A stretch of 13,300 bases of DNA from Bacteroidia bacterium (GTDB lineage Bacteria; Bacteroidota; Bacteroidia; JABDFU01). Made by a program: the position numbers and the translations under genes. The DNA lies in NCBI GenBank assembly GCA_020849195.1, contig JADLGT010000066.1, forward strand, positions 1 through 13,300. Reading direction: 5' to 3'. Below are positions 1-9,920 of this stretch, one piece after another; position 1 is the first letter of the stretch; every line of letters begins with the position of its first letter. Under the pieces are notes generated by a model. That model did no database searches. It was given only the letters and a program-made list of their open reading frames with translations, and had not been told where the DNA came from.

Positions 1-471
1 AGCTGTTGGAATTTCTTCGGCTTTAGTAACCTGAAAATTCCATTTAGTTACCGGCATCGATATACCTATTACATCCGTTTCCTGAAATGCATCGGTACCT
101 AAAAGGTGTGAAGCCACCTGTCCTGTAATACAAACCAAGGGCGTTGAATCGATTTGTGCATCGGCTATACCTGTTATAAGATTGGTTGCACCGGGTCCGG
201 ATGTTGCAAAACACACTCCTACTTTACCGGTAACTCGCGCATAGCCTTGTGCAGCATGAGTTGAGCCTTGTTCGTGGCGAACAAGAATATGTTTAATCTT
301 GTCTTCGTAATCGTACAGCGCATCATATATTGGCATGATGGCACCTCCGGGGTAACCGAAAACAGTATCCACACCTTCTTCAATCAATGACAGGATAAGC
401 GATTCAGAGCCTGTAATTTCTTTTGATAGGTTTGTCTTTTTTTCCTGTAATTCTGTTGCTGACATTTGCAT
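1..471 (-). CDS. ilvB: Acetolactate synthase large subunit, N-terminal part (cut by window edge)
   Basis: First 157 residues of the thiamine-diphosphate enzyme that condenses two pyruvates, or pyruvate with 2-oxobutyrate, in Ile/Val/Leu synthesis. The translation shows the classic N-terminal features of the family: [16 protein letters not shown] (residues 39-54), then [20 protein letters not shown] with the catalytic Glu at residue 67 that activates ThDP, then [19 protein letters not shown], and finally the [10 protein letters not shown] and GTDAFQE segments. The C-terminal half lies beyond position 1. The ATG at 471 is the outermost start; a second in-frame ATG follows two codons later (465) and could be the real one. 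The gene starts only 15 bp after the ilvD stop on the same strand, so the two are almost certainly co-transcribed from the attenuated promoter upstream of ilvD. The product usually works with a small regulatory subunit (IlvN/IlvH), which would lie outside the window. Confidence 0.95.
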
Positions 472-486
472 GGGTATAATTATTAA

Positions 487-2169
487 TTAAAATTTATGTT
501 CGTCTGTAACACAACCTTCTGAAGCAGAAGATACAGTTTGAATGTATTTATATAAAACACCTTTAGAAACAGGTACCTCAGGTCTTTTCCATTCTTTTTT
601 TCGTTTGTTCATTTCAGCATCGCTGATATGAAGTGTGATTGTATTTTTTTTTGCGTCAATAGAAATTTTATCTCCGTTTTTTACAATTGCTATTGTACCA
701 CCTTCATAGGCTTCGGGCGTTATGTGTCCTACAACAAACCCATGCGATCCGCCTGAAAAGCGTCCGTCGGTAATCAGTGCAACACTATTGCCTAATCCTG
801 CACCCATTATGGCCGATGTAGGTTTCAGCATTTCGGGCATACCTGGCGCACCTTTGGGTCCCGAGTTACGAATTACTACAACGTGTCCGGGTTTTACATC
901 GCCGCGTTGCACACCCTGCATTGTTTCAAACTCGTCATTAAATACAATGGCAGTGCCTTCAAAAAATTCTCCTTCTTGACCGGTTATTTTCGCAACAGCC
1001 CCTTGTTCGGCCAGGTTGCCGTACAAAATCTGAATGTGCCCACTTTGTTTTATTGGCGAACTCGTTGGTAGAATTACCTTTTGATCTGTTTTTAGTTCCG
1101 GGAGATTTTTAAGATTTTCTTCGATTGTTTTTCCGGTAACCGTTAAACAATCGCCATGCAGAAAACCTTCTTTTAATAACAGTTTCATTACCGCCGGAAT
1201 ACCGCCTGCTTCGTGTAAATCTTCCATCAGGTATTTTCCGCCGGGTTTTAAATCGGCAATAAACGGCACTTTATTACTTATAGATTGAAAGTCGTCAATT
1301 GTTAATTTAACATCAACCGACTTTGCCATAGCTATAAGATGGAGTACGGCATTTGTAGAGCCGCCTAATGCCATAACAATAGTAATTGCGTTTTCAAAAG
1401 CCTTACGTGTCATTATATCGCGCGGCTTGATGTCTTTTTCCAAAAGATTTCGAATAGCTTTTCCTGTTTCAATACATTCCGTTTGCTTTTGTTTACTTAA
1501 AGCAGGATTGGAAGAGCTGTAAGGCAAGCTCATGCCCATAGCTTCAATAGCAGAAGCCATTGTGTTTGCGGTGTACATTCCGCCGCAGGCACCCGCACCC
1601 GGACAAGAGTTTTTAATTACATTTTTAAAATCTTCGGGTGTAATTTCATTTTTAAATTTTTTTCCTAAGGCCTCAAATGCCGAAACAATATTCAATGCCT
1701 CGCCTTTATAATTTCCTGAATGGATGGTTCCGCCGTAAACCATGATGGAAGGGCGGTTTAACCGGCCCATTGCCATCACCGATCCCGGCATATTTTTATC
1801 GCAGCCTACAACGGCAACAATTGCATCGTACCACTGTGCGCCGGCAACTGTTTCAATAGAATCGGCAATAATATCGCGCGATACCAGCGAGTAACGCATA
1901 CCTGTGGTTCCGTTCGACATACCATCGCTAACACCAATCGTATTAAAAATTAATCCGACTAAATTGTTTTGCGTAACGCCTTGCTTAACCTCTTTGGCAA
2001 GGTCGTTTAAATGCATATTGCAGGTATTTCCTTCGTATCCTGTGCTAACAATACCCACCTGAGCCTTTTTCATGTCGGCATCAGTTAGCCCAACACCATA
2101 TAACATGGCTTGTGCGGCGGGTTGAGTTTCGTCTTGAGTAAGGGTTTTGCTGTATTTATTTAGTTCCAT
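487..2169 (-). CDS. ilvD: Dihydroxy-acid dehydratase
   Basis: 560-residue Fe-S dehydratase that converts 2,3-dihydroxy-isovalerate and 2,3-dihydroxy-3-methylvalerate to the 2-oxo acids leading to Val/Leu and Ile. Three cluster-ligand cysteines sit in recognisable contexts: EGNTCNMH (C50), GCDKNMPG (C123) and [12 protein letters not shown] (C195). The Mg site residues D82 ([11 protein letters not shown]), D124 and K125, which is carbamylated in the family, are present, as is the C-terminal [19 protein letters not shown] block that carries the catalytic Ser region. Length is normal for the family and I see no frameshift. Three cysteines fit either a [2Fe-2S] or a [4Fe-4S] enzyme; the sequence alone does not decide. 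It is the first structural gene of an ilvD-ilvB operon and lies directly behind the attenuator at 2190-2321. As an Fe-S enzyme it is a plausible client of the suf operon 1.6 kb away. Confidence 0.97.
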
Positions 2170-2189: not shown

Positions 2190-2218
2190 AAAAAAAAATC
2201 CCTCTTTTGGGGAGGGAT
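2190..2218 (-). terminator. Intrinsic terminator between the leader peptide and ilvD (attenuator)
   Basis: Read on the minus strand, the arms ATCCCTC and GAGGGAT form a perfect 7-bp stem around a 7-nt loop (CCCAAAA), followed at once by eight or nine T residues. This is a textbook Rho-independent terminator. It sits 26 bp after the stop of the leader ORF and about 20 bp before the ilvD start, so transcripts would stop before ilvD unless the hairpin is prevented. No gene ends here other than the 25-codon leader, which argues for regulated read-through rather than a plain gene-end terminator. Confidence 0.85.
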
Positions 2219-2258
2219 GGTTTTTCAGATTTTTTATTTTTTATTATACCATACCTCC
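2211..2258 (-). promoter_or_regulatory. Predicted antiterminator of the ilv attenuator
   Basis: On the minus strand GGAGGTATGGT (positions 2258-2248, leader codons 22-25) can pair with ACCATCCCTCC (2221-2211). Ten of eleven positions match, with one internal T-C mismatch. The downstream arm contains the 5' half of the terminator stem (2212-2218), so the two structures exclude each other. A ribosome stalled in the Ile/Val run (codons 10-16) would leave codons 22-25 free and favour antitermination. A ribosome reaching the stop codon would cover them and let the terminator form. The pairing is read directly from the sequence; the switching behaviour is inferred by analogy with enterobacterial amino acid operons. 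Confidence 0.75.
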
Positions 2259-2321
2259 TGCGCGGGCAATAAACACCACAATAATAATCACTACAGCAGA
2301 TATGATATATTGTTTTTTCAT
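2244..2321 (-). CDS. Ile/Val-rich leader peptide of the ilv operon
   Basis: A 25-codon ORF: MKKQY, then IISAVVIIIVVFIARAGG, then MV and a TAA stop. Eleven of 25 residues are Ile (6) or Val (5), with the run VVIIIVV at residues 10-16, and there is no Leu at all. That is odd for a simple membrane peptide but expected if codons are selected to sense Ile- and Val-tRNA. It lies between a good promoter and an intrinsic terminator upstream of ilvD, and its last four codons form one arm of a predicted antiterminator. It is therefore best read as a cis-acting leader peptide, analogous in role to enterobacterial ilvL, though I claim no homology. The 5' leader would be only about 5-7 nt and shows no Shine-Dalgarno. 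The alternative is a tiny membrane protein, since KK plus a hydrophobic stretch would also fit. It is too short for most gene finders. Confidence 0.82.
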   Translation of the reverse strand: MKKQYIISAVVIIIVVFIARAGGMV

Positions 2322-2331
2322 TTTGGAGGAG

Positions 2332-2361
2332 CAAATGTATATAATTTTTTTTAAATACAAA
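2332..2361 (-). promoter_or_regulatory. Promoter of the ilv leader-ilvD-ilvB operon
   Basis: On the minus strand a TTTG (2361-2358, -33 element) is followed after 18 bp by TACATTTG (2339-2332). That is an exact match to the Bacteroidota -7 consensus TAnnTTTG; the spacer is at the short end. Transcription should begin around 2326-2328, five to seven nucleotides before the leader ATG at 2321. The fit of promoter, leader ORF and terminator in one line supports each of them. Confidence 0.7.
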
Positions 2362-2394: not shown

Positions 2395-3198
2395 ATGATG
2401 ATTAAACATGTCGATTTTAAACAAGTAAAAGTTCGTTACGACGACCGTGGCAAAGGCCGTACTGTTGTGTTGTTGCACGGCTTTATGGAAAGTTCGGAAA
2501 TATGGGATGAGTTTTCGAAACAACTCTCTAAATCGTTTCGTGTGATATGTATTGACTTGCCGGGCTTTGGCGAAACGCCCTGCATAGGTTATGTACACAG
2601 CATGGAGATGATGGCTAAATGCGTGAAGGCGGTGTTGGATAAGGAACGATTAAGAAAGTATGTAATCATAGGCCATTCCATGGGAGGTTATATAACACTG
2701 GCTTTTGCCGAATTGTTCAACGATAATTTAAAAGGACTTGGGCTTTTTAATTCGACCGCACTGTCCGATACAGAAGAGAGAAAAATTAACAGAAACAAAG
2801 CAATTAGCATAGTGCGACAAAATCCGCGCGCATACATAAAATTATTTTTTGATCCTTTGTTTGCTCCGCAAAATGTCGAAGCATATAAAAACGAAATAAA
2901 ACGGCTACAGGAAAAGGCAGCTCATTTTTCAAAGCAGGCAATTGTAAACACCTTGACTGGCATGAGAGACAGACAAAAACGCGACTGGGTGCTTGAGATG
3001 GCTAAATACCCTGTGCTGTATATTATTGGAAAGCACGACAGCATTATACCCTACGAAACCGTTTTAAAACAAGCCGAATCGGTTAAGCACGCAACTGTGT
3101 TGTTTTTGGAAAATGCAGGCCACATGGGCTTTGTGGAGGAAAAATCAGCTACGCTGAATGCTGTAAAGATATTTGCGCGAAAATGCTTTCGGAAATAA
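2395..3198 (+). CDS. Alpha/beta-hydrolase-fold esterase/lipase-like protein
   Basis: 267-residue soluble alpha/beta hydrolase. Visible features are LLHGFMESSEIW (oxyanion-hole HG at 28-29), the strand and turn CIDLPGFGET (52-61), the nucleophile elbow GHSMGG with Ser95, the acid strand IIGKHDSIIP with Asp215, and the catalytic His243 in NAGHMGF. The triad S95-D215-H243 is complete and the length is typical of single-domain family members. No signal peptide is seen, so it is probably cytosolic. The substrate cannot be told: these proteins are often annotated as carboxylesterase, MhpC-like or MenH-like, and nothing nearby suggests a pathway. It is divergent from the ilv operon, with 73 bp between its start and the leader ATG. 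I found no clean TAnnTTTG for it there (TAATTTTT at 2342-2349 is the nearest). ATG 2395 is followed directly by a second ATG at 2398 that would serve equally well. Confidence 0.9.
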   Translation: MMIKHVDFKQVKVRYDDRGKGRTVVLLHGFMESSEIWDEFSKQLSKSFRVICIDLPGFGETPCIGYVHSMEMMAKCVKAVLDKERLRKYVIIGHSMGGYITLAFAELFNDNLKGLGLFNSTALSDTEERKINRNKAISIVRQNPRAYIKLFFDPLFAPQNVEAYKNEIKRLQEKAAHFSKQAIVNTLTGMRDRQKRDWVLEMAKYPVLYIIGKHDSIIPYETVLKQAESVKHATVLFLENAGHMGFVEEKSATLNAVKIFARKCFRK

Positions 3199-3239
3199 AT
3201 ACGTTTTGTTACTGTTCGGTCCAAAAATATCAAAATAAA

Positions 3240-3266
3240 CAATCGTTGATTGAAATCATTTTTTTT
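3240..3266 (+). terminator. Weak candidate terminator after the alpha/beta hydrolase
   Basis: CAATC-gtt-GATTG forms a 5-bp stem, and a run of eight T follows at 3259-3266 after a 6-nt gap. An alternative, TGAT-TGAA-ATCA directly before the T-run, gives only 4 bp. The position, 40-70 bp after the stop, is right for a gene-end terminator, but the stem is weak and AT-rich, so this is a tentative call. Confidence 0.28.
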
Positions 3267-3708
3267 GAGTAGCATGAAGTAGGGAAATGATTCAGAGCTT
3301 TGCTTTGGTAAATGAAAACATCCGAAGGATTTGTTCCGCCATCAAACTAATTAGCTCTGCGCAAGGAGACGGAAAACTTTATTGCCGGGTTTAAAAAACG
3401 ATTTAGTAGTAAACCTTTTTAAAAAAAATCTCCAACTTTTAGGGGGCTAAGACAATCATAGTATTCTTTATGTTCTGTGCCTGAAGTAACGTTAAAATAA
3501 TACTTTTGAAAAATCTTCTTGCCGATATTTATTCGTCCTGTTGCGCATAAACGGTAAGATTTCTTTGTAAACGAGTGTTAATTTATTACCAATAAAAAGT
3601 CGGCTGATTTATTCTCAATAATCGTATCAATGATCGGCTGACTTCGCCATTTTTCAACGAAACAATTCGAATTTTGCGAAGAAATTGCGTTATTTTTTAC
3701 TAAAAAAC

Positions 3709-3740
3709 TTTGTCCATATACCATCTTTTAGGTATTTTTG
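3709..3740 (+). promoter_or_regulatory. Promoter of the suf operon
   Basis: TTTG (3709-3712), a 20-bp spacer and TATTTTTG (3733-3740) match the Bacteroidota -33/-7 promoter (TTTG, TAnnTTTG) in both elements and in spacing. The start point should fall about 3745-3747, giving a 5' UTR of roughly 40 nt before the sufA-like gene at 3788. I found no comparable element in the later gaps of the cluster, which supports one long transcript from here. Confidence 0.78.
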
Positions 3741-3746
3741 CACTGT

Positions 3747-3765
3747 ATTTAGAATTATTCTAAAT
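3747..3765. promoter_or_regulatory. 19-bp palindrome at the suf transcription start, candidate operator
   Basis: ATTTAGAAT-T-ATTCTAAAT is a perfect 9-1-9 inverted repeat covering about +1 to +20 of the predicted suf transcript, directly after the -7 element. A repressor bound there would block initiation. The 19-bp 9-1-9 layout, and the inner 7-1-7 core, match the geometry of Fur-superfamily boxes; the core agrees with the B. subtilis PerR box TTATAATnATTATAA at 12 of 14 defined positions. Control of Fe-S assembly by an iron or peroxide sensor would make sense, but no regulator gene is in the window, and an Rrf2-type or other dimeric regulator is equally possible. Confidence 0.65.
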
Positions 3766-3787
3766 AAAAATAACAAAAAAATAAACA

Positions 3788-4114
3788 ATGATAACCGTTT
3801 CAGATTTTGCAAAAGAAAAAGCCATTCATTTAATGCAGGAAGAAAATAAACCCGAAGGCTCGTTTATACGTGTTGGTGTTGAAGGAGGGGGTTGCTCGGG
3901 CTTATCGTACAAACTAGAGTTCGACAATGTATTAAAAGAAGGCGATCAGGTATTTGAAAACAAAGGCATAAAAGTAGTAACCGACAAAAAGAGTTTTTTG
4001 TATTTAGTAGGAACTGAGTTGGATTATTCGGGAGGCTTAAACGGAAAAGGTTTTATTTTCAAAAATCCCAATGCAACGCGTTCCTGCGGATGTGGAGAAT
4101 CTTTTTCTGTATAA
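3788..4114 (+). CDS. sufA: A-type Fe-S carrier (HesB/IscA/SufA family)
   Basis: 108-residue A-type carrier protein that accepts Fe-S clusters (or iron) from the SufBCD scaffold and passes them to apo-enzymes. The three conserved cysteines are all present: C36 in EGGGCSGLSYK, and C100 and C102 in the C-terminal RSCGCGESF motif. Length is standard for the family. It is the first gene of the suf cluster, about 40 nt behind the predicted start point, and sufB follows after 12 bp. The family cannot be split reliably into IscA, SufA and ErpA by eye; SufA is chosen from the operon context. Confidence 0.93.
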   Translation: MITVSDFAKEKAIHLMQEENKPEGSFIRVGVEGGGCSGLSYKLEFDNVLKEGDQVFENKGIKVVTDKKSFLYLVGTELDYSGGLNGKGFIFKNPNATRSCGCGESFSV

Positions 4115-4126
4115 CCTCGGTTAGTT

Positions 4127-5587
4127 ATGTCTGACACAAATCAACTATTAGAAGAAATTACCGGCAGCGAGTACAAGTATGGCTGGACCACAAACATTGA
4201 CACCGAAACAGCCCCAAAAGGTATCAATGCAGAGGTAATACGGTTCATTTCGCAGAAAAAAAATGAGCCGACGTGGATGTTGGAATTAAGGTTGAAAGCA
4301 TTCCGCCACTGGCTTACACTTGAAGAGCCACGGCATTGGGCAAAAATTCAATATCCTGCAATTAATTTTAACGATATAATTTATTTTGCTGCCCCAAAAC
4401 CTAAAAAGCAATTAAAAAATTTGAATGAAGTAGATCCCGAACTGCTGAAAACATTTGAAAAACTCGGAATTTCGCTCGAAGAACAAAAGCGCTTGAGTGG
4501 TGTGGAAAGTAGCATTGCCGTTGATGCTGTTATTGACAGTGTTTCTGTTAAAACAACTTTTAAAGAAGTGCTTGCCGAAAAAGGAATTATTTTTTGTTCG
4601 TTCAGCGAAGCAGTTCAGGAACACCCCGAACTGGTAAAAGAATATATGGGTTCGGTTGTGCCCTATACCGATAATTTTTATGCTGCACTTAACGCTGCTG
4701 TTTTTAGCGATGGATCGTTTTGCTATGTGCCTAAAGGTGTGCGCTGCCCCATGGAGCTATCAACTTATTTCCGCATCAACTCGGCCGGAACCGGTCAGTT
4801 CGAACGTACACTTATCATTGCCGACGAAGGCGCGTATGTTAGTTACCTCGAAGGCTGCACCGCACCCAAGCGCGACGAAAATCAATTACACGCAGCCGTT
4901 GTAGAAATTGTTGCACATAAAAATGCCGAAGTAAAATACAGTACCGTGCAAAACTGGTATCCGGGCGACAAGGATGGCAAAGGCGGCATTTACAACTTTG
5001 TTACCAAACGGGGAATTTGCATAGGCAACAATTCGAAAATATCGTGGACGCAGGTGGAGACAGGATCGGCAATTACATGGAAATACCCGTCGGTAATTTT
5101 AAAGGGCGATAATTCTATTGGCGAATTTTATTCCGTTGCCGTTACCAATAATTTGCAGCAAGCCGACACCGGAACTAAAATGACGCACATAGGTAAAAAT
5201 ACCCGAAGCACAATTGTATCGAAAGGAATTTCGGCAGGCAAGAGCAATAATAGTTACCGTGGATTGGTGCGTATAAATAAGGGAGCACACAATGCCCGTA
5301 ATTTTTCGCAATGCGACTCGTTGCTGATGGGCGACAAATGCGGCGCACACACCTTTCCGTATATTGAGATAAAAGATAAATCGGCTATTGTAGAACATGA
5401 AGCCACTACTTCAAAAATAGGAGAAGATCAACTTTTTTATTGCAATCAGCGGGGCATAGAAACAGAAAAGGCAATTGGCTTAATTGTAAACGGATATTGT
5501 AAAGAAGTATTAAATCAACTACCTATGGAATTTGCCGTAGAATCACAAAAATTACTGGCGGTGAGTTTGGAGGGAAGTGTTGGGTAG
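4127..5587 (+). CDS. sufB: Fe-S assembly scaffold subunit SufB
   Basis: 486-residue core subunit of the SufBC2D complex, on which sulfur from SufS-SufE and iron are assembled into a cluster. The C-terminal beta-helix domain is well conserved. [20 protein letters not shown] contains C244, the likely sulfur-accepting Cys (equivalent to E. coli C254). [17 protein letters not shown] contains C405, and [19 protein letters not shown] contains H424 and E425, matching the E. coli cluster-site residues. [11 protein letters not shown] near the N-terminus is also typical. Length is close to E. coli SufB (495). No inteins or insertions are present, which is worth noting because sufB hosts inteins in some bacteria. 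It acts in the cytosol; sufC follows after 72 bp with no recognisable promoter between. Confidence 0.98.
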
Positions 5588-5659
5588 AGAGGTTAATTTT
5601 CACCCCGGCAACTACCAAGATTTTTCAAATTTTTTCAACTAGTTTAAATTCAAAACCAA

Positions 5660-6415
5660 ATGTTATCTATAAAAAATTTAAAAGCCGGCATAGCCGGGAA
5701 AGAAATCCTCAAAGGCATTAATTTGGAAGTAAAAGCCGGCGAAGTCCACGCCATTATGGGACCGAACGGATCGGGAAAAAGTACACTGAGCAACGTGTTG
5801 GCAGGGCGTGAAGATTATGACGTGTCGGATGGACAAGTACTGTTCAACAAAAAAAATTTATTAGAAATGCCGCCCGAAGACCGTGCACGCGAAGGATTAT
5901 TTTTAGCCTTTCAATATCCGGTAGAAATTCCCGGAGTAAGCAACATAAATTTTTTGAAAACTGCCTTGTCCGAAATTCGCCAATACAAAGGGCTTCCGCC
6001 GCTCGACACAAAAGAGTTCTTAAAATTAGTTAAAGAAAAACAAGCCCTTGTTGAGATGCAAGGTTCTTTAGCCAATCGATCGGTGAACGAAGGTTTTTCG
6101 GGAGGAGAAAAAAAACGCAACGAAATTTTTCAGATGGCTATGTTGGAACCTACGCTTGCCGTATTAGACGAAACTGATTCCGGACTTGATATTGATGCCC
6201 TGCGTATTGTAGCCAACGGCGTAAATATGCTCCGTGCAAAAAACAGAGCTTTTGTAGTAATTACACACTACCAGCGTTTGCTCGATTATATTGTACCCGA
6301 TTTTGTACATGTGTTGTACAACGGTCGTATTGTAAAATCGGGTACAAAAGAATTAGCAATGGAACTGGAAGAAAAAGGCTACGAATGGATTAAAGAACTT
6401 GCGCCGGCTGTTTAA
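5660..6415 (+). CDS. sufC: Fe-S assembly ATPase SufC
   Basis: 251-residue ABC-type ATPase that binds SufB and SufD and drives the conformational change needed for cluster assembly; it is soluble, not a transporter. All nucleotide-binding motifs are present: Walker A GPNGSGKST (34-42), Q-loop FQYP (Q85), the signature FSGGEKKR (146-153), Walker B LAVLDETDSGLD (166-177) with D170 and E171, and switch His203 in ITHYQRLL. The SGGEKKRNEIFQM and DETDSGLDIDAL wording is diagnostic for SufC rather than a generic ABC ATPase. It lies between sufB and sufD. Confidence 0.98.
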   Translation: MLSIKNLKAGIAGKEILKGINLEVKAGEVHAIMGPNGSGKSTLSNVLAGREDYDVSDGQVLFNKKNLLEMPPEDRAREGLFLAFQYPVEIPGVSNINFLKTALSEIRQYKGLPPLDTKEFLKLVKEKQALVEMQGSLANRSVNEGFSGGEKKRNEIFQMAMLEPTLAVLDETDSGLDIDALRIVANGVNMLRAKNRAFVVITHYQRLLDYIVPDFVHVLYNGRIVKSGTKELAMELEEKGYEWIKELAPAV

Positions 6416-6502
6416 CCCGGATTGTGTATAAGAATCAAAGCACAAATCAAAATTCGGGAACGTTGAAAAAAACAAAAGACTGAAAAAAGAGTAACAAACA
6501 AA

Positions 6503-7828
6503 ATGAACGCTACAGTAGAAAAAATTAAAACAGGTGATAAATTTGCCGAACTATTTGACCGGTTACATACTCAACTGCCCGGTAACGCATCCATTCAATC
6601 TATTCGTAAAAATGCCATTGCAGCTTTTTTAAAACAAGGTATTCCAACCCGAAAAAATGAGGAGTATAAATATTCGCTTCCCGAAAAACTATTTAAAACC
6701 AATTATTCGCTCGCAACTAAACTGCCTTCGTTGCAAATTACTGCCGACGATTCTAAGACTTTCGATATATCCGGTATTACTCAAAATAAAATAGTGTTGA
6801 TCAATGGATTTTATTCGCAACAATTGTCTTCAGTCAATAATCTTACAAAAGGTGTAATCGTATCGGATATTTCAACTTCGTTTGAAAAACATGCTGCACA
6901 CATTGAAAAACATTTTGCAAAATATGCTAATGTTGATGCAGACCCCTTTATAGCACTGAACAGTGCTTTAAACGCCAACGGTCTTTTTATTTTTGTTCCT
7001 GAAAATACAGTTGTTGAGCAACCCATACACATTATCAACATTATTACCGCAAACGAACTTTCGCTGATTCAGCCGCGCAATTTATTTATAATTGAAAAAA
7101 ATGCAGAAATAAAAATCATTGAATCGCTTGATGCGTATAAGCTATCAACAAACGTTGTTGTAAATATGGTAACCGAAATTTCTGTAGCCGAACAGTCAAA
7201 AGTACAATACTATAAACTTCAAAACGACTGCGAGAAAATTGCACAAATTAATACAACTCAGGTTTATCAATTAGAAAACTCGCACTTCGATACAAACACC
7301 GTTACATTAAACGGAGATTGGGTGCGCAACAATTTGAATATTGTTGTTGATGCAGAAAATTGTGAGACCCATTTAAATGGTTTGTTTATTTCTAAAAACA
7401 ATCAGCACATCGACAATCACACACTTGTCGATCACCAAAAACCAAACTGCCAAAGTAATCAGTTGTACAAAGGTGTGCTTAGCGGAAAATCGACAGGTGT
7501 GTTTAACGGAAAAATTTATGTGCGCCGCGATGCACAAAAAATAAACGCATACCAAAGCTCAAAAAATATTTTATTGAGCGATGATGCAACAATTAATACT
7601 AAACCCGAATTGGAAATATATGCTGATGATGTTAAATGTTCGCATGGGTCGTCAACCGGTCAATTGAACGAAGATGCGTTATTTTATTTACGTGCACGCG
7701 GGCTAAGTACCGATAGTGCGAAACGTATGCTGCTTTACGCCTTTGCTTCCGACGCAATAAATACAATACGAATTGATGTACTAAAAGAACATATTGATAA
7801 GCTGATTGAAAAACAATTAATTCAGTAG
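6503..7828 (+). CDS. sufD: Fe-S assembly subunit SufD
   Basis: 441-residue paralogue of SufB that completes the SufBC2D complex and supports iron acquisition. The N-terminal part is poorly conserved but has the usual PTRKNEEYKYS motif (about 49-59). The C-terminal beta-helix ends with the diagnostic EIYADDVKCSHGSSTGQL block (C379, H381) and DALFYLRARGL. H381 corresponds to the functionally important SufD His (E. coli H360). Length is slightly above E. coli SufD (423). It follows sufC after 87 bp, the longest gap between the core suf genes; no TAnnTTTG element was found there. sufS starts 19 bp after its stop. Confidence 0.96.
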   Translation: MNATVEKIKTGDKFAELFDRLHTQLPGNASIQSIRKNAIAAFLKQGIPTRKNEEYKYSLPEKLFKTNYSLATKLPSLQITADDSKTFDISGITQNKIVLINGFYSQQLSSVNNLTKGVIVSDISTSFEKHAAHIEKHFAKYANVDADPFIALNSALNANGLFIFVPENTVVEQPIHIINIITANELSLIQPRNLFIIEKNAEIKIIESLDAYKLSTNVVVNMVTEISVAEQSKVQYYKLQNDCEKIAQINTTQVYQLENSHFDTNTVTLNGDWVRNNLNIVVDAENCETHLNGLFISKNNQHIDNHTLVDHQKPNCQSNQLYKGVLSGKSTGVFNGKIYVRRDAQKINAYQSSKNILLSDDATINTKPELEIYADDVKCSHGSSTGQLNEDALFYLRARGLSTDSAKRMLLYAFASDAINTIRIDVLKEHIDKLIEKQLIQ

Positions 7829-7847
7829 CCCTCTTCCCGAATCTGTA

Positions 7848-9095
7848 ATGATGGACACAATGACTCAACATAAAATTAAATTAGATGTAACTAAAATACG
7901 TTCCGATTTTCCAATACTTTCGAGAGAGGTAAACGGACAGCCGCTGATTTATTTCGATAGCGGGGCAACAGCTCAAAAACCACGTATTGTAATCGACACA
8001 TTAACTAATTATTATTTGCATGACAATGCCAACATACACCGTGGCGTGCACAAGCTAAGTCAGGATATTACCACAAAATACGAAGAGGCCAGAGCAACTA
8101 TCCAAAAGCACCTTAATGCGCAACATATTCATGAAATAGTTTTTACCTGTGGCGCTACCGACTCCATCAATCTTGTTGCCGCAACGTTTGGAAAAAAATT
8201 TATTAAAGCCGGCGACGAAATTATTGTAAGCGAAATGGAACACCACAGCAATATCCTGCCTTGGCAAATGTTGTGCGAAGAAACAGGCGCTACATTAAAA
8301 GTAATTCCCATTAACGATGCAGGTGAGCTAAAGATGGATGAGTTCAAAAGTATGTTGAGCAACAAAGTCAAAATGGTAGCTGTAACCCATGTGTCGAATA
8401 CGCTTGGTACAATAAATCCTGTAAAAGAAATTACGGCTTTGGCTCATGCTGTCGACGCTTGTGTATTGATCGATGGGGCACAGGCCGTACCTCACATGAA
8501 GGTTGATGTGCAAAATATTGCTTGTGATTTTTATTGTTTTAGTGCGCATAAAATATATGGACCCACAGGCGTGGGTGTGTTGTACGGCAAGGAGAATTGG
8601 TTGAACAAATTACCTCCCTATCGAACCGGCGGAGGCACCATCAAATCGGTATCGTTTAATAAAACCATTTATGCCGATTTGCCCCTAAAGTTTGAGGCCG
8701 GCACTCCGCATATTGAAGGGGGCATTGGTCTTGCAGCAGCAATTAACTATGTAAATAAAATCGGATTGGATACCATAGCCGCATACGAGCATGAGCTAAT
8801 GGAATATGCAACTGAAAAACTATCGGAAATAAACGGGTTACGCCTTATCGGAACGGCAAAAAATAAGGCGAGTGTAATTTCATTTTTTGTTGATGGCGCG
8901 CACCCCTTCGATATAGGAACTATACTCGACAAGCAAGGGATAGCAGTGCGAACAGGACATCATTGCACCCAACCTTTAATGACCTGTTATAAAATTCCGG
9001 GAACGATACGGGTTTCGCTCGCATTTTATAATACAAAAGAAGAAATAAAAAAATTAATTGATGCTTTAAATAAAGCCATCAAAATGTTGAACTAG
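7848..9095 (+). CDS. sufS: Cysteine desulfurase SufS (group II)
   Basis: 415-residue PLP enzyme that removes sulfur from L-cysteine, holds it as a persulfide and hands it to SufE. Seen in order: FDSGATAQKP (37-46), the cofactor-stacking His region SEMEHHSNILPW (H132/H133), the PLP-aspartate strand VLIDGAQAVPH (D209), the Schiff-base lysine K235 in CFSAHKIYGPTG, and the persulfide Cys C373 in the short-loop motif RTGHHCTQPLM, which marks the SufS/CsdA group rather than IscS. KFEAGTPHIEGGIG is also typical. The start is ambiguous: ATG codons lie in frame at 7848, 7851 and 7860, and the first conserved segment lies well after all three. The sufE partner follows after 42 bp. Confidence 0.97.
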   Translation: MMDTMTQHKIKLDVTKIRSDFPILSREVNGQPLIYFDSGATAQKPRIVIDTLTNYYLHDNANIHRGVHKLSQDITTKYEEARATIQKHLNAQHIHEIVFTCGATDSINLVAATFGKKFIKAGDEIIVSEMEHHSNILPWQMLCEETGATLKVIPINDAGELKMDEFKSMLSNKVKMVAVTHVSNTLGTINPVKEITALAHAVDACVLIDGAQAVPHMKVDVQNIACDFYCFSAHKIYGPTGVGVLYGKENWLNKLPPYRTGGGTIKSVSFNKTIYADLPLKFEAGTPHIEGGIGLAAAINYVNKIGLDTIAAYEHELMEYATEKLSEINGLRLIGTAKNKASVISFFVDGAHPFDIGTILDKQGIAVRTGHHCTQPLMTCYKIPGTIRVSLAFYNTKEEIKKLIDALNKAIKMLN

Positions 9096-9137
9096 TTTTT
9101 TCAACCACATAACCGGTGGCGCGAAGGATTTGATTAA

Positions 9138-9566
9138 ATGGAAATAGAAAAAATAGAACAAGAAATAATTGACGAATTTGAATTATTCGGTAAGGACTGG
9201 GAAAGTAAGTATGAGCATTTGATTGAACTCGGGAAGTCGCTCCCAATTATTGACCCTATTTATAAAACCGATGACAAACTTATTCGCGGCTGCCAAAGCA
9301 GAGTGTGGCTGTATAGCGAAATAGTTAATGGTAAAATAAATTTTTCGGCCGATAGCGATGCAATAATTACCAAAGGACTTGTGGCATTAGTAATACGCGT
9401 ATTAGCAAATCACACACCCGACGAAATTATAAATGCTAAATTGAATTTTATTAATGCCATTGGATTGAAAGAGCATTTGTCGCCCACTCGCGCAAATGGT
9501 TTGGTAAATATGATTAAACAAATGAAAATGGATGCTTTGGCTTTAAAATCGAAAATATCAAGTTAG
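9138..9566 (+). CDS. sufE: Sulfur acceptor SufE
   Basis: 142-residue sulfur shuttle that takes the persulfide from SufS and stimulates its activity, then passes sulfur to SufB. The conserved acceptor Cys is C52 in the diagnostic LIRGCQSRVWL motif. The N-terminal helix EIIDEFELFGKDWESKYEHLIELGK is typical of the family, as is the C-terminal LSPTRANGLVNMI segment. Length matches E. coli SufE (138). It lies directly after its partner sufS and 24 bp before the MIP18-like gene. Confidence 0.97.
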   Translation: MEIEKIEQEIIDEFELFGKDWESKYEHLIELGKSLPIIDPIYKTDDKLIRGCQSRVWLYSEIVNGKINFSADSDAIITKGLVALVIRVLANHTPDEIINAKLNFINAIGLKEHLSPTRANGLVNMIKQMKMDALALKSKISS

Positions 9567-9590
9567 AAAAATACGCACTGAATTTATTTT

Positions 9591-9920
9591 ATGGCTGCAA
9601 TAATAATAGGTAAAAACGCAGAACTGGTTCAAAATATAATCGACGTAATAAAAACATGTTACGATCCGGAAATTCCTGTGGATATATGGGAGCTTGGTCT
9701 TATCTACGAAATAAATATTGATGACGAAAATAATTTAAAAGTTATTATGACCTTAACATCGCCCTCGTGTCCCGTGGCCGAAACATTGCCCCCCGATGTT
9801 GAGCAGAAGTTGAGAGATATTGAAGGGATAAAATCAGCAAAAATTGAATTAACATTCGAACCGCCCTGGGAAAAAGAAATGATGAGCGAAGTAGCTCAGG
9901 TAGAGCTGGGCTTTATGTAA
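9591..9920 (+). CDS. MIP18/DUF59-family Fe-S maturation protein (SufT-like)
   Basis: 109-residue single-domain protein of the MIP18 (DUF59) family, whose members include SufT, PaaD and eukaryotic CIA2 and which help mature or deliver Fe-S clusters. Conserved blocks are YDPEIPVDIWELGLIYEI (24-41), MTLTSPSCPVAETLP (53-67) with the family Cys C60, and the C-terminal FEPPWEKEMMSE. Its place directly behind sufE in the same operon supports a role in cluster assembly or trafficking; SufT has been linked to maturation under high Fe-S demand in Gram-positives. Annotation pipelines may call it SUF system assembly protein or DUF59 protein. It is cytosolic, with no signal or TM segment. Confidence 0.92.
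   Translation: MAAIIIGKNAELVQNIIDVIKTCYDPEIPVDIWELGLIYEINIDDENNLKVIMTLTSPSCPVAETLPPDVEQKLRDIEGIKSAKIELTFEPPWEKEMMSEVAQVELGFM

Follow-up and report, generated by a model that had tools for sequence, protein, structure and literature searches.

A predicted isoleucine/valine leader-peptide attenuator ahead of ilvD and ilvB in a Bacteroidota genome, and serial modules in related bacteria

Introduction

Does the short region ahead of ilvD in a Bacteroidia genome (67.5% complete) control the genes behind it by sensing isoleucine and valine through translation of a leader peptide? The question arises from a stretch of 13,300 nt, hereafter the window, which is the entire contig C66 of that genome, and in which ilvD and the start of ilvB follow a small ORF and a hairpin. 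The features that bear on it are listed below in the order of transcription.

2358..2361, minus strand: TTTG, read from the sequence, which we take to be a -33 element
2332..2339, minus strand: TACATTTG, putative -7 box (TAnnTTTG), 18 nt past TTTG and 10 nt ahead of the leader ATG
2244..2321, minus strand: leader ORF, MKKQYIISAVVIIIVVFIARAGGMV plus stop, 25 codons (ATG at 2321, TAA at 2246-2244)
2298..2309, minus strand: segment 1 (codons 5-8), able to form 12 continuous pairs with 2245-2256
2245..2258, minus strand: segment 2 (codon 22 to the stop codon), partner of segment 1 or segment 3
2211..2221, minus strand: segment 3, antiterminator partner of segment 2, overlapping the 5' arm of the terminator
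2198..2218, minus strand: terminator hairpin (segments 3:4), ATCCCTC / GAGGGAT, 7 bp with a 7-nt loop
2190..2197, minus strand: U-tract of eight T, directly after the terminator
487..2169, minus strand: ilvD, dihydroxy-acid dehydratase, with profile matches above curated cut-offs
1..471, minus strand: ilvB, acetolactate synthase large subunit, first 157 codons, the rest cut off by the contig end

Results

The locus and its leader

The ilvD product exceeds the curated cut-offs of TIGR00110 (730 bits vs 618) and NF002068 (817 vs 644), and its closest relatives, among the best 80 of 562 confirmed candidates, belong to Bacteroidota. The partial ilvB product falls under the full-length cut-offs because the contig end leaves only 157 codons, while its Pfam TPP_enzyme_N match lies above its own cut-off. 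The only ilvE-family match in this genome falls below the cut-off, and none precedes ilvD in the window; whatever comes after ilvB lies beyond the contig end. On the other side of the leader a hydrolase gene (2395-3198, plus strand) is oriented away from it, so that no gene just upstream on the minus strand is available for a terminator at 2218-2190 to serve; judged by gene order, the hairpin would stop only transcripts begun in front of the leader. The same hairpin is also terminator-like on the plus strand, with a weaker T-run. The roughly 590 nt that follow the hydrolase gene (3199-3787) contain no ORF of more than 74 codons starting inside, no tRNA and no Rfam match, and lead to a SUF iron-sulfur set (3788-9920, plus strand; IscA/SufA-like, SufB, SufC, SufD, SufS, SufE and an FeS_assembly_P protein), after which comes a gene for a DUF2480 protein. 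IlvD is an iron-sulfur enzyme.

The initial annotation had described a promoter with 18 nt between TTTG and TACATTTG (2361-2332), a 25-codon leader with six Ile, five Val and no Leu, an antiterminator in which leader codons 22-25 pair with 2211-2221 at 10 of 11 positions, and a 7-bp terminator with a U-tract followed by ilvD, all of which direct reading of the minus strand confirmed. The antiterminator joins GGAGGTATGGT (2258-2248) to ACCATCCCTCC (2221-2211), and the terminator arms lie at 2218-2212 and 2204-2198. A further pairing of segments 1 and 2 (2309-2298 with 2256-2245), which had been missed, coexists with the terminator in the minimum-energy fold; as segment 2 is common to 1:2 and 2:3, and segment 3 to 2:3 and 3:4, the design is the classical one of four segments. 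Sequence-level traits of a classical attenuator are found together here: a small leader ORF in which codons for Ile and Val, amino acids made by the operon, are clustered; an intrinsic terminator between the leader and the first structural gene; an antiterminator and terminator that are mutually exclusive; a protector hairpin 1:2 of 12 pairs, weak in many relatives; and a predicted structure that varies with the position of the ribosome at the control codons. The fold has a z-score of -4.4, none of 200 shuffles being equally stable. Among 3000 dinucleotide shuffles of 2170-2394 (225 nt), an ORF with at least 11 Ile plus Val arose in four and a terminator in 12, and none contained an ORF with at least nine Ile plus Val and then a terminator in the required order. 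Since the putative -7 box stands only 10 nt from the ATG, almost no untranslated leader is left, which raises the question of how ribosome and polymerase keep in step.

A modeled switch at the control codons

The leader was folded by partition function while the ribosome was moved along it one codon at a time, on the assumption that the RNA is shielded as far as 13 nt beyond the first base of the codon in the A site; two definitions of the arms gave the same borders. With codons 4-18 in the A site, arm 3 is predicted to lie in the antiterminator (probability 0.79-0.88), codon 3 is mixed (0.47 vs 0.42), and with no ribosome, or with codons 1-2 or 19-26 in the A site, arm 3 is predicted to lie in the terminator (0.70-0.75). 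Every one of the six Ile codons of the leader, and all but one of its five Val codons, fall within codons 4-18. With charged tRNA-Ile and tRNA-Val in ample supply, the ribosome would reach the stop codon and cover segment 2, leaving the terminator 3:4 to form. A shortage of either charged tRNA would hold the ribosome at codons 6-18 and keep segment 1 open, and segment 2, thus freed, would pair with segment 3, allowing RNA polymerase to run on into ilvD. Were the leader not translated at all, segments 1 and 2 would pair and RNA polymerase would terminate.

Residue-specific modules ahead of ilvD in related genomes

A search of 395 genomes of the class gave an IlvD of the window kind in 85. We surveyed 168 ilvD upstream regions (755,596 nt), made up of the best 80 of 562 confirmed candidates, 86 further regions, that of the same-genus genome G002 (L015) and the window; near-duplicates are included and some of the 86 are cut by contig ends. 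A detector for leaders followed by terminators gave 162 sense matches in 101 regions vs 22 reverse-strand matches in 21, and no match in the remaining 67 of the 168. Under stricter settings (terminator score of at least 18 and at least six of eight residues Ile, Val or Leu) 127 sense modules stood against two in reverse. When the same terminators were used with a shorter distance limit and other residue sets, Ile/Leu/Val gave 125 sense matches (87 regions) and Ile/Val 97, whereas eight other sets gave 2, 0, 2, 0, 1, 1, 2 and 5. The 7-bp stem of the window itself lies below the terminator cut-offs of this control and of the serial-array count given below. In 14 candidate-free regions of an earlier 2500-nt scan, inspected by eye, another ORF ends shortly before ilvD, some of these ORFs resembling leuB or ilvE; a leader could be located further up in such regions, or be absent.

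Leader ends fit their own terminator arms

Pairing between leader ends and terminator arms was compared across 86 modules, drawn from 139 (the window added by hand) by removing those more than 85% alike. The 139 had been picked by a terminator score of at least 18 with at least six of eight residues Ile, Val or Leu, or at least five of eight in 12 named loci, independently of any leader-arm pairing, and false-looking picks (L130, L132, L136, L138, L059, L079 and one of L078) were retained. Pairing of each leader end with its own arm averaged -13.04 kcal/mol vs -8.97 (sd 0.27) for permuted arms, the lowest of 10,000 permutations reaching -10.34 kcal/mol. The own arm beat the mean of the others in 73 modules and was among the top 10% in 45; at -16.0 kcal/mol, the pairing of the window comes second of the 86. 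Shared ancestry improves the permuted partners and so works against this result, while differences in G+C between genomes could favor it, a point addressed by reversed and shuffled arms. Reversed arms averaged -9.12 kcal/mol, the own arm being better in 72 of the 86 and not better in 14. The own arm beat all 50 shuffled arms in 23 modules and was matched by at most five of the 50 in 63; in the window, none of the 50 shuffled arms paired with segment 2 as well as the real arm. Averaged over the 86 modules, leader ends fit their own arms far better than swapped ones. The 1:2 pairing likewise exceeded permutation (-11.60 vs -9.52 kcal/mol, sd 0.29), and is weak in many short leaders. Of the 86 modules, 76 pair at -9 kcal/mol or lower, and 72 of these have a segment 2 that begins within the leader ORF. 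Counting pairs on a MAFFT alignment of 25 hand-chosen sequences, from which several near-duplicates had been omitted, was abandoned in favor of the swap test, as the arms were out of register.

The last codons were read in 31 leader rows. Where the last codon is CTA the arm contains AGCC (6/6), and where it is GTA or GTT the arm contains AACC in 13; five GT-ending rows deviate (L036, L114, L143, L148, L183), and six rows that end in TTA divide into four with AACC and two with AGCC, L144 being of the other leader type. This covariation bears on the reading that the ORF encodes a small hydrophobic, possibly membrane-bound peptide with its own function, the hairpin being incidental. The leader peptide is indeed strongly hydrophobic, and a hydrophobic peptide of 25 residues is kept in the two nearest relatives; outside the genus, however, the peptides have little in common beyond runs of Ile, Val and Leu, and the last codons, the five misfits notwithstanding, track the arm; a functional peptide is very improbable.

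The element in the same genus

The attenuator predicted in the window was also sought in five other genomes of its genus. An ilvD match was found in G004 and G002 (in the latter a fragment of the 108 N-terminal residues at a contig end) and none in G001, G003 and G005 (65, 72 and 56% complete). Leader, antiterminator and terminator are all present in both genomes with a match, so that the proposed conservation in relatives holds; there the order is leader-ilvE-ilvD, with the G004 ilvE above the TIGR01122 cut-off, and the leaders read MKHINTILTIFIFFVIIYRSTPGMV and MKHINTIPAIFIFFVIIYRSTPGMV. One leader type therefore precedes different first genes, ilvD in the window and ilvE in L003 and L015. 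With up to three mismatches allowed, a leader-start pattern hit the leaders of G004 and G002 exactly, together with five other places at three mismatches each. A degenerate pattern for the Val/Ile run matched, across the six genus genomes, the window and one place in G004; this second match (L023, G004:C156:32145-32164) lies away from the ilv genes examined.

The terminator stems of G004 and G002 measure 11 bp vs 7 bp in the window. In their models the terminator prevails at equilibrium for almost all positions of the ribosome, with an exception near codons 3-4 of G002, so that antitermination there would have to be kinetic; the antiterminator is predicted to arise before arm 4 is made, with the ribosome at codons up to 18. 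If the hairpin of the window were instead a constitutive partial terminator holding expression at one level, left by an attenuator that has decayed and lost its amino-acid sensing, its shorter stem and an operon that differs from those of G004 and G002 in having no ilvE between leader and ilvD would both be in keeping. Yet the three pairings and the control codons are all intact, and the modeled switch is sharper in the window than in these relatives, so that such decay is even less probable than a functional peptide.

At curated cut-offs Rfam gave no match in the window, and a search of 2100-2400 at E up to 5 gave none above its cut-off. The model for Trp_leader (RF00513) reached 22.4 bits against a cut-off of 41 (E 0.021) and was rejected, as was Bacteroid-trp (RF01692), presumably a trp attenuator, which appeared neither at curated cut-offs nor in the weak list. 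A riboswitch, T-box or protein-bound leader able to detect the amino acid without the ORF being translated would, by inference, look alike in placing a structured leader and terminator before a biosynthetic gene, but the lack of any Rfam match at curated cut-offs, the lack of any T-box or riboswitch among 14 weak matches, and an Ile/Val/Leu-specific ORF at the same place in many genomes make this the least probable reading of all.

Modules in series

At a score of at least 17, the 168 regions, near-identical loci included, comprised 71 with no module, 65 with one, 23 with two and nine with three (L028, L033, L043, L052, L056, L068, L075, L084, L089), the window counting as a zero-module region owing to the lower score of its stem. 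Two or three modules thus stand in series in 32 of the 168. Ahead of ilvE in Flavobacterium psychrophilum (L028) stand three leaders with as many terminators, and the last two of the three are almost identical. Arrays mostly precede the gene before ilvD, as with ilvE in L028; the first module is often of the window type (ending GML or GMV), with later ones of an IIIISIII type.

The motif TAnnTTTG is described as the sigma-A -7 box in the accessible text of one study (PMC9723704). Such a box lies 7-22 nt ahead of an in-frame ATG of the first leader in 27 of the 32 arrays, and at that distance before none of the 41 later modules, which suggests one promoter with attenuators in series. Ten of the later modules, each the second in its array (L033, L039, L042, L045, L048, L054, L058, L074, L079 and L105), have a TAnnTTTG box at a distance of 48-58 nt, possibly an internal promoter.

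Discussion

We predict with high confidence that 2190-2361 is a classical ribosome-mediated transcription attenuator before ilvD-ilvB. Attenuation by a leader peptide, as the initial annotation had claimed, is supported as a prediction because the element is conserved in relatives, is specific for Ile, Leu and Val, and has leader ends that match their own terminator arms; the attenuator is very probably real and of ordinary mechanism. The absence of Leu, from which sensing of Ile and Val had been argued, stands for the leader of the window and fails as a trait of the group, in which Leu is present in 55 of 86 leaders. More broadly, and more tentatively, at somewhat less than an even chance, many Bacteroidota may control Ile and Val synthesis by compact modules whose antiterminator is formed by the end of the leader ORF itself, one to three of them stacked behind a single promoter (-7 box about 7-22 nt before the first start) and each multiplying the threshold of the next, the window being a stripped-down form with a single module. 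Serial arrays would make it possible to test whether stacking of attenuators sharpens the response or divides it into steps.

Ribosome-mediated attenuation is a textbook feature of ilv operons. The E. coli ilvGMEDA (ilvL) and ilvBN (ivbL) operons have Ile and Val codons in their leaders, alternative hairpins, and an intrinsic terminator before the ilv genes, and ilvL has Leu control codons too. Compared by design, the window shares with them the Ile/Val leader, the alternative hairpins and the terminator; unlike ilvL its leader is without Leu control codons, and it differs from both in a segment 2 that lies within the last leader codons and in a putative -7 box only 10 nt from the ATG. Vitreschak et al. 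(2004) and Lopatovskaya et al. (2010) reportedly made comparative predictions of attenuators of the same kind, the abstract of the former being said to include Bacteroidetes/Chlorobi. The accessible text of PMC2965389 (2010), which cites the 2004 paper, states that no leader-peptide system was known beyond Proteobacteria and Actinobacteria before its own case in Firmicutes, at odds with the Bacteroidetes coverage reported for that paper.

Nearer to the window, the accessible text of PMC9723704 reports structured 5' regions ahead of amino-acid operons of F. psychrophilum that strongly hint at attenuation by leader peptides; these are alike in kind and also from Bacteroidota, and that text neither names ilv nor mentions serial arrays. 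As to the doubt in the initial annotation whether the design had been described for ilvD in Bacteroidota, attenuation by leader peptides had already been proposed in Flavobacterium. Within the portions available, Bacteroid-trp RNA (RF01692), whose model the window does not match, is listed as a cis-regulatory RNA of Bacteroidetes (PMC2864571), sORFs of Bacteroides thetaiotaomicron are described as reminiscent of leader peptides (PMC7366714), and an ilvD motif in Veillonella is given as a weak riboswitch candidate (PMC8632094). Our literature search, which covered few subscription papers and some sources in part, found no ilvD or ilvE leader of Bacteroidota and no serial peptide attenuators. 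Set against these systems, the type of mechanism has long been known, and novelty is most likely to be found in the serial arrays; the interest lies in those arrays, and in the spread of the element before related genes in many related bacteria.
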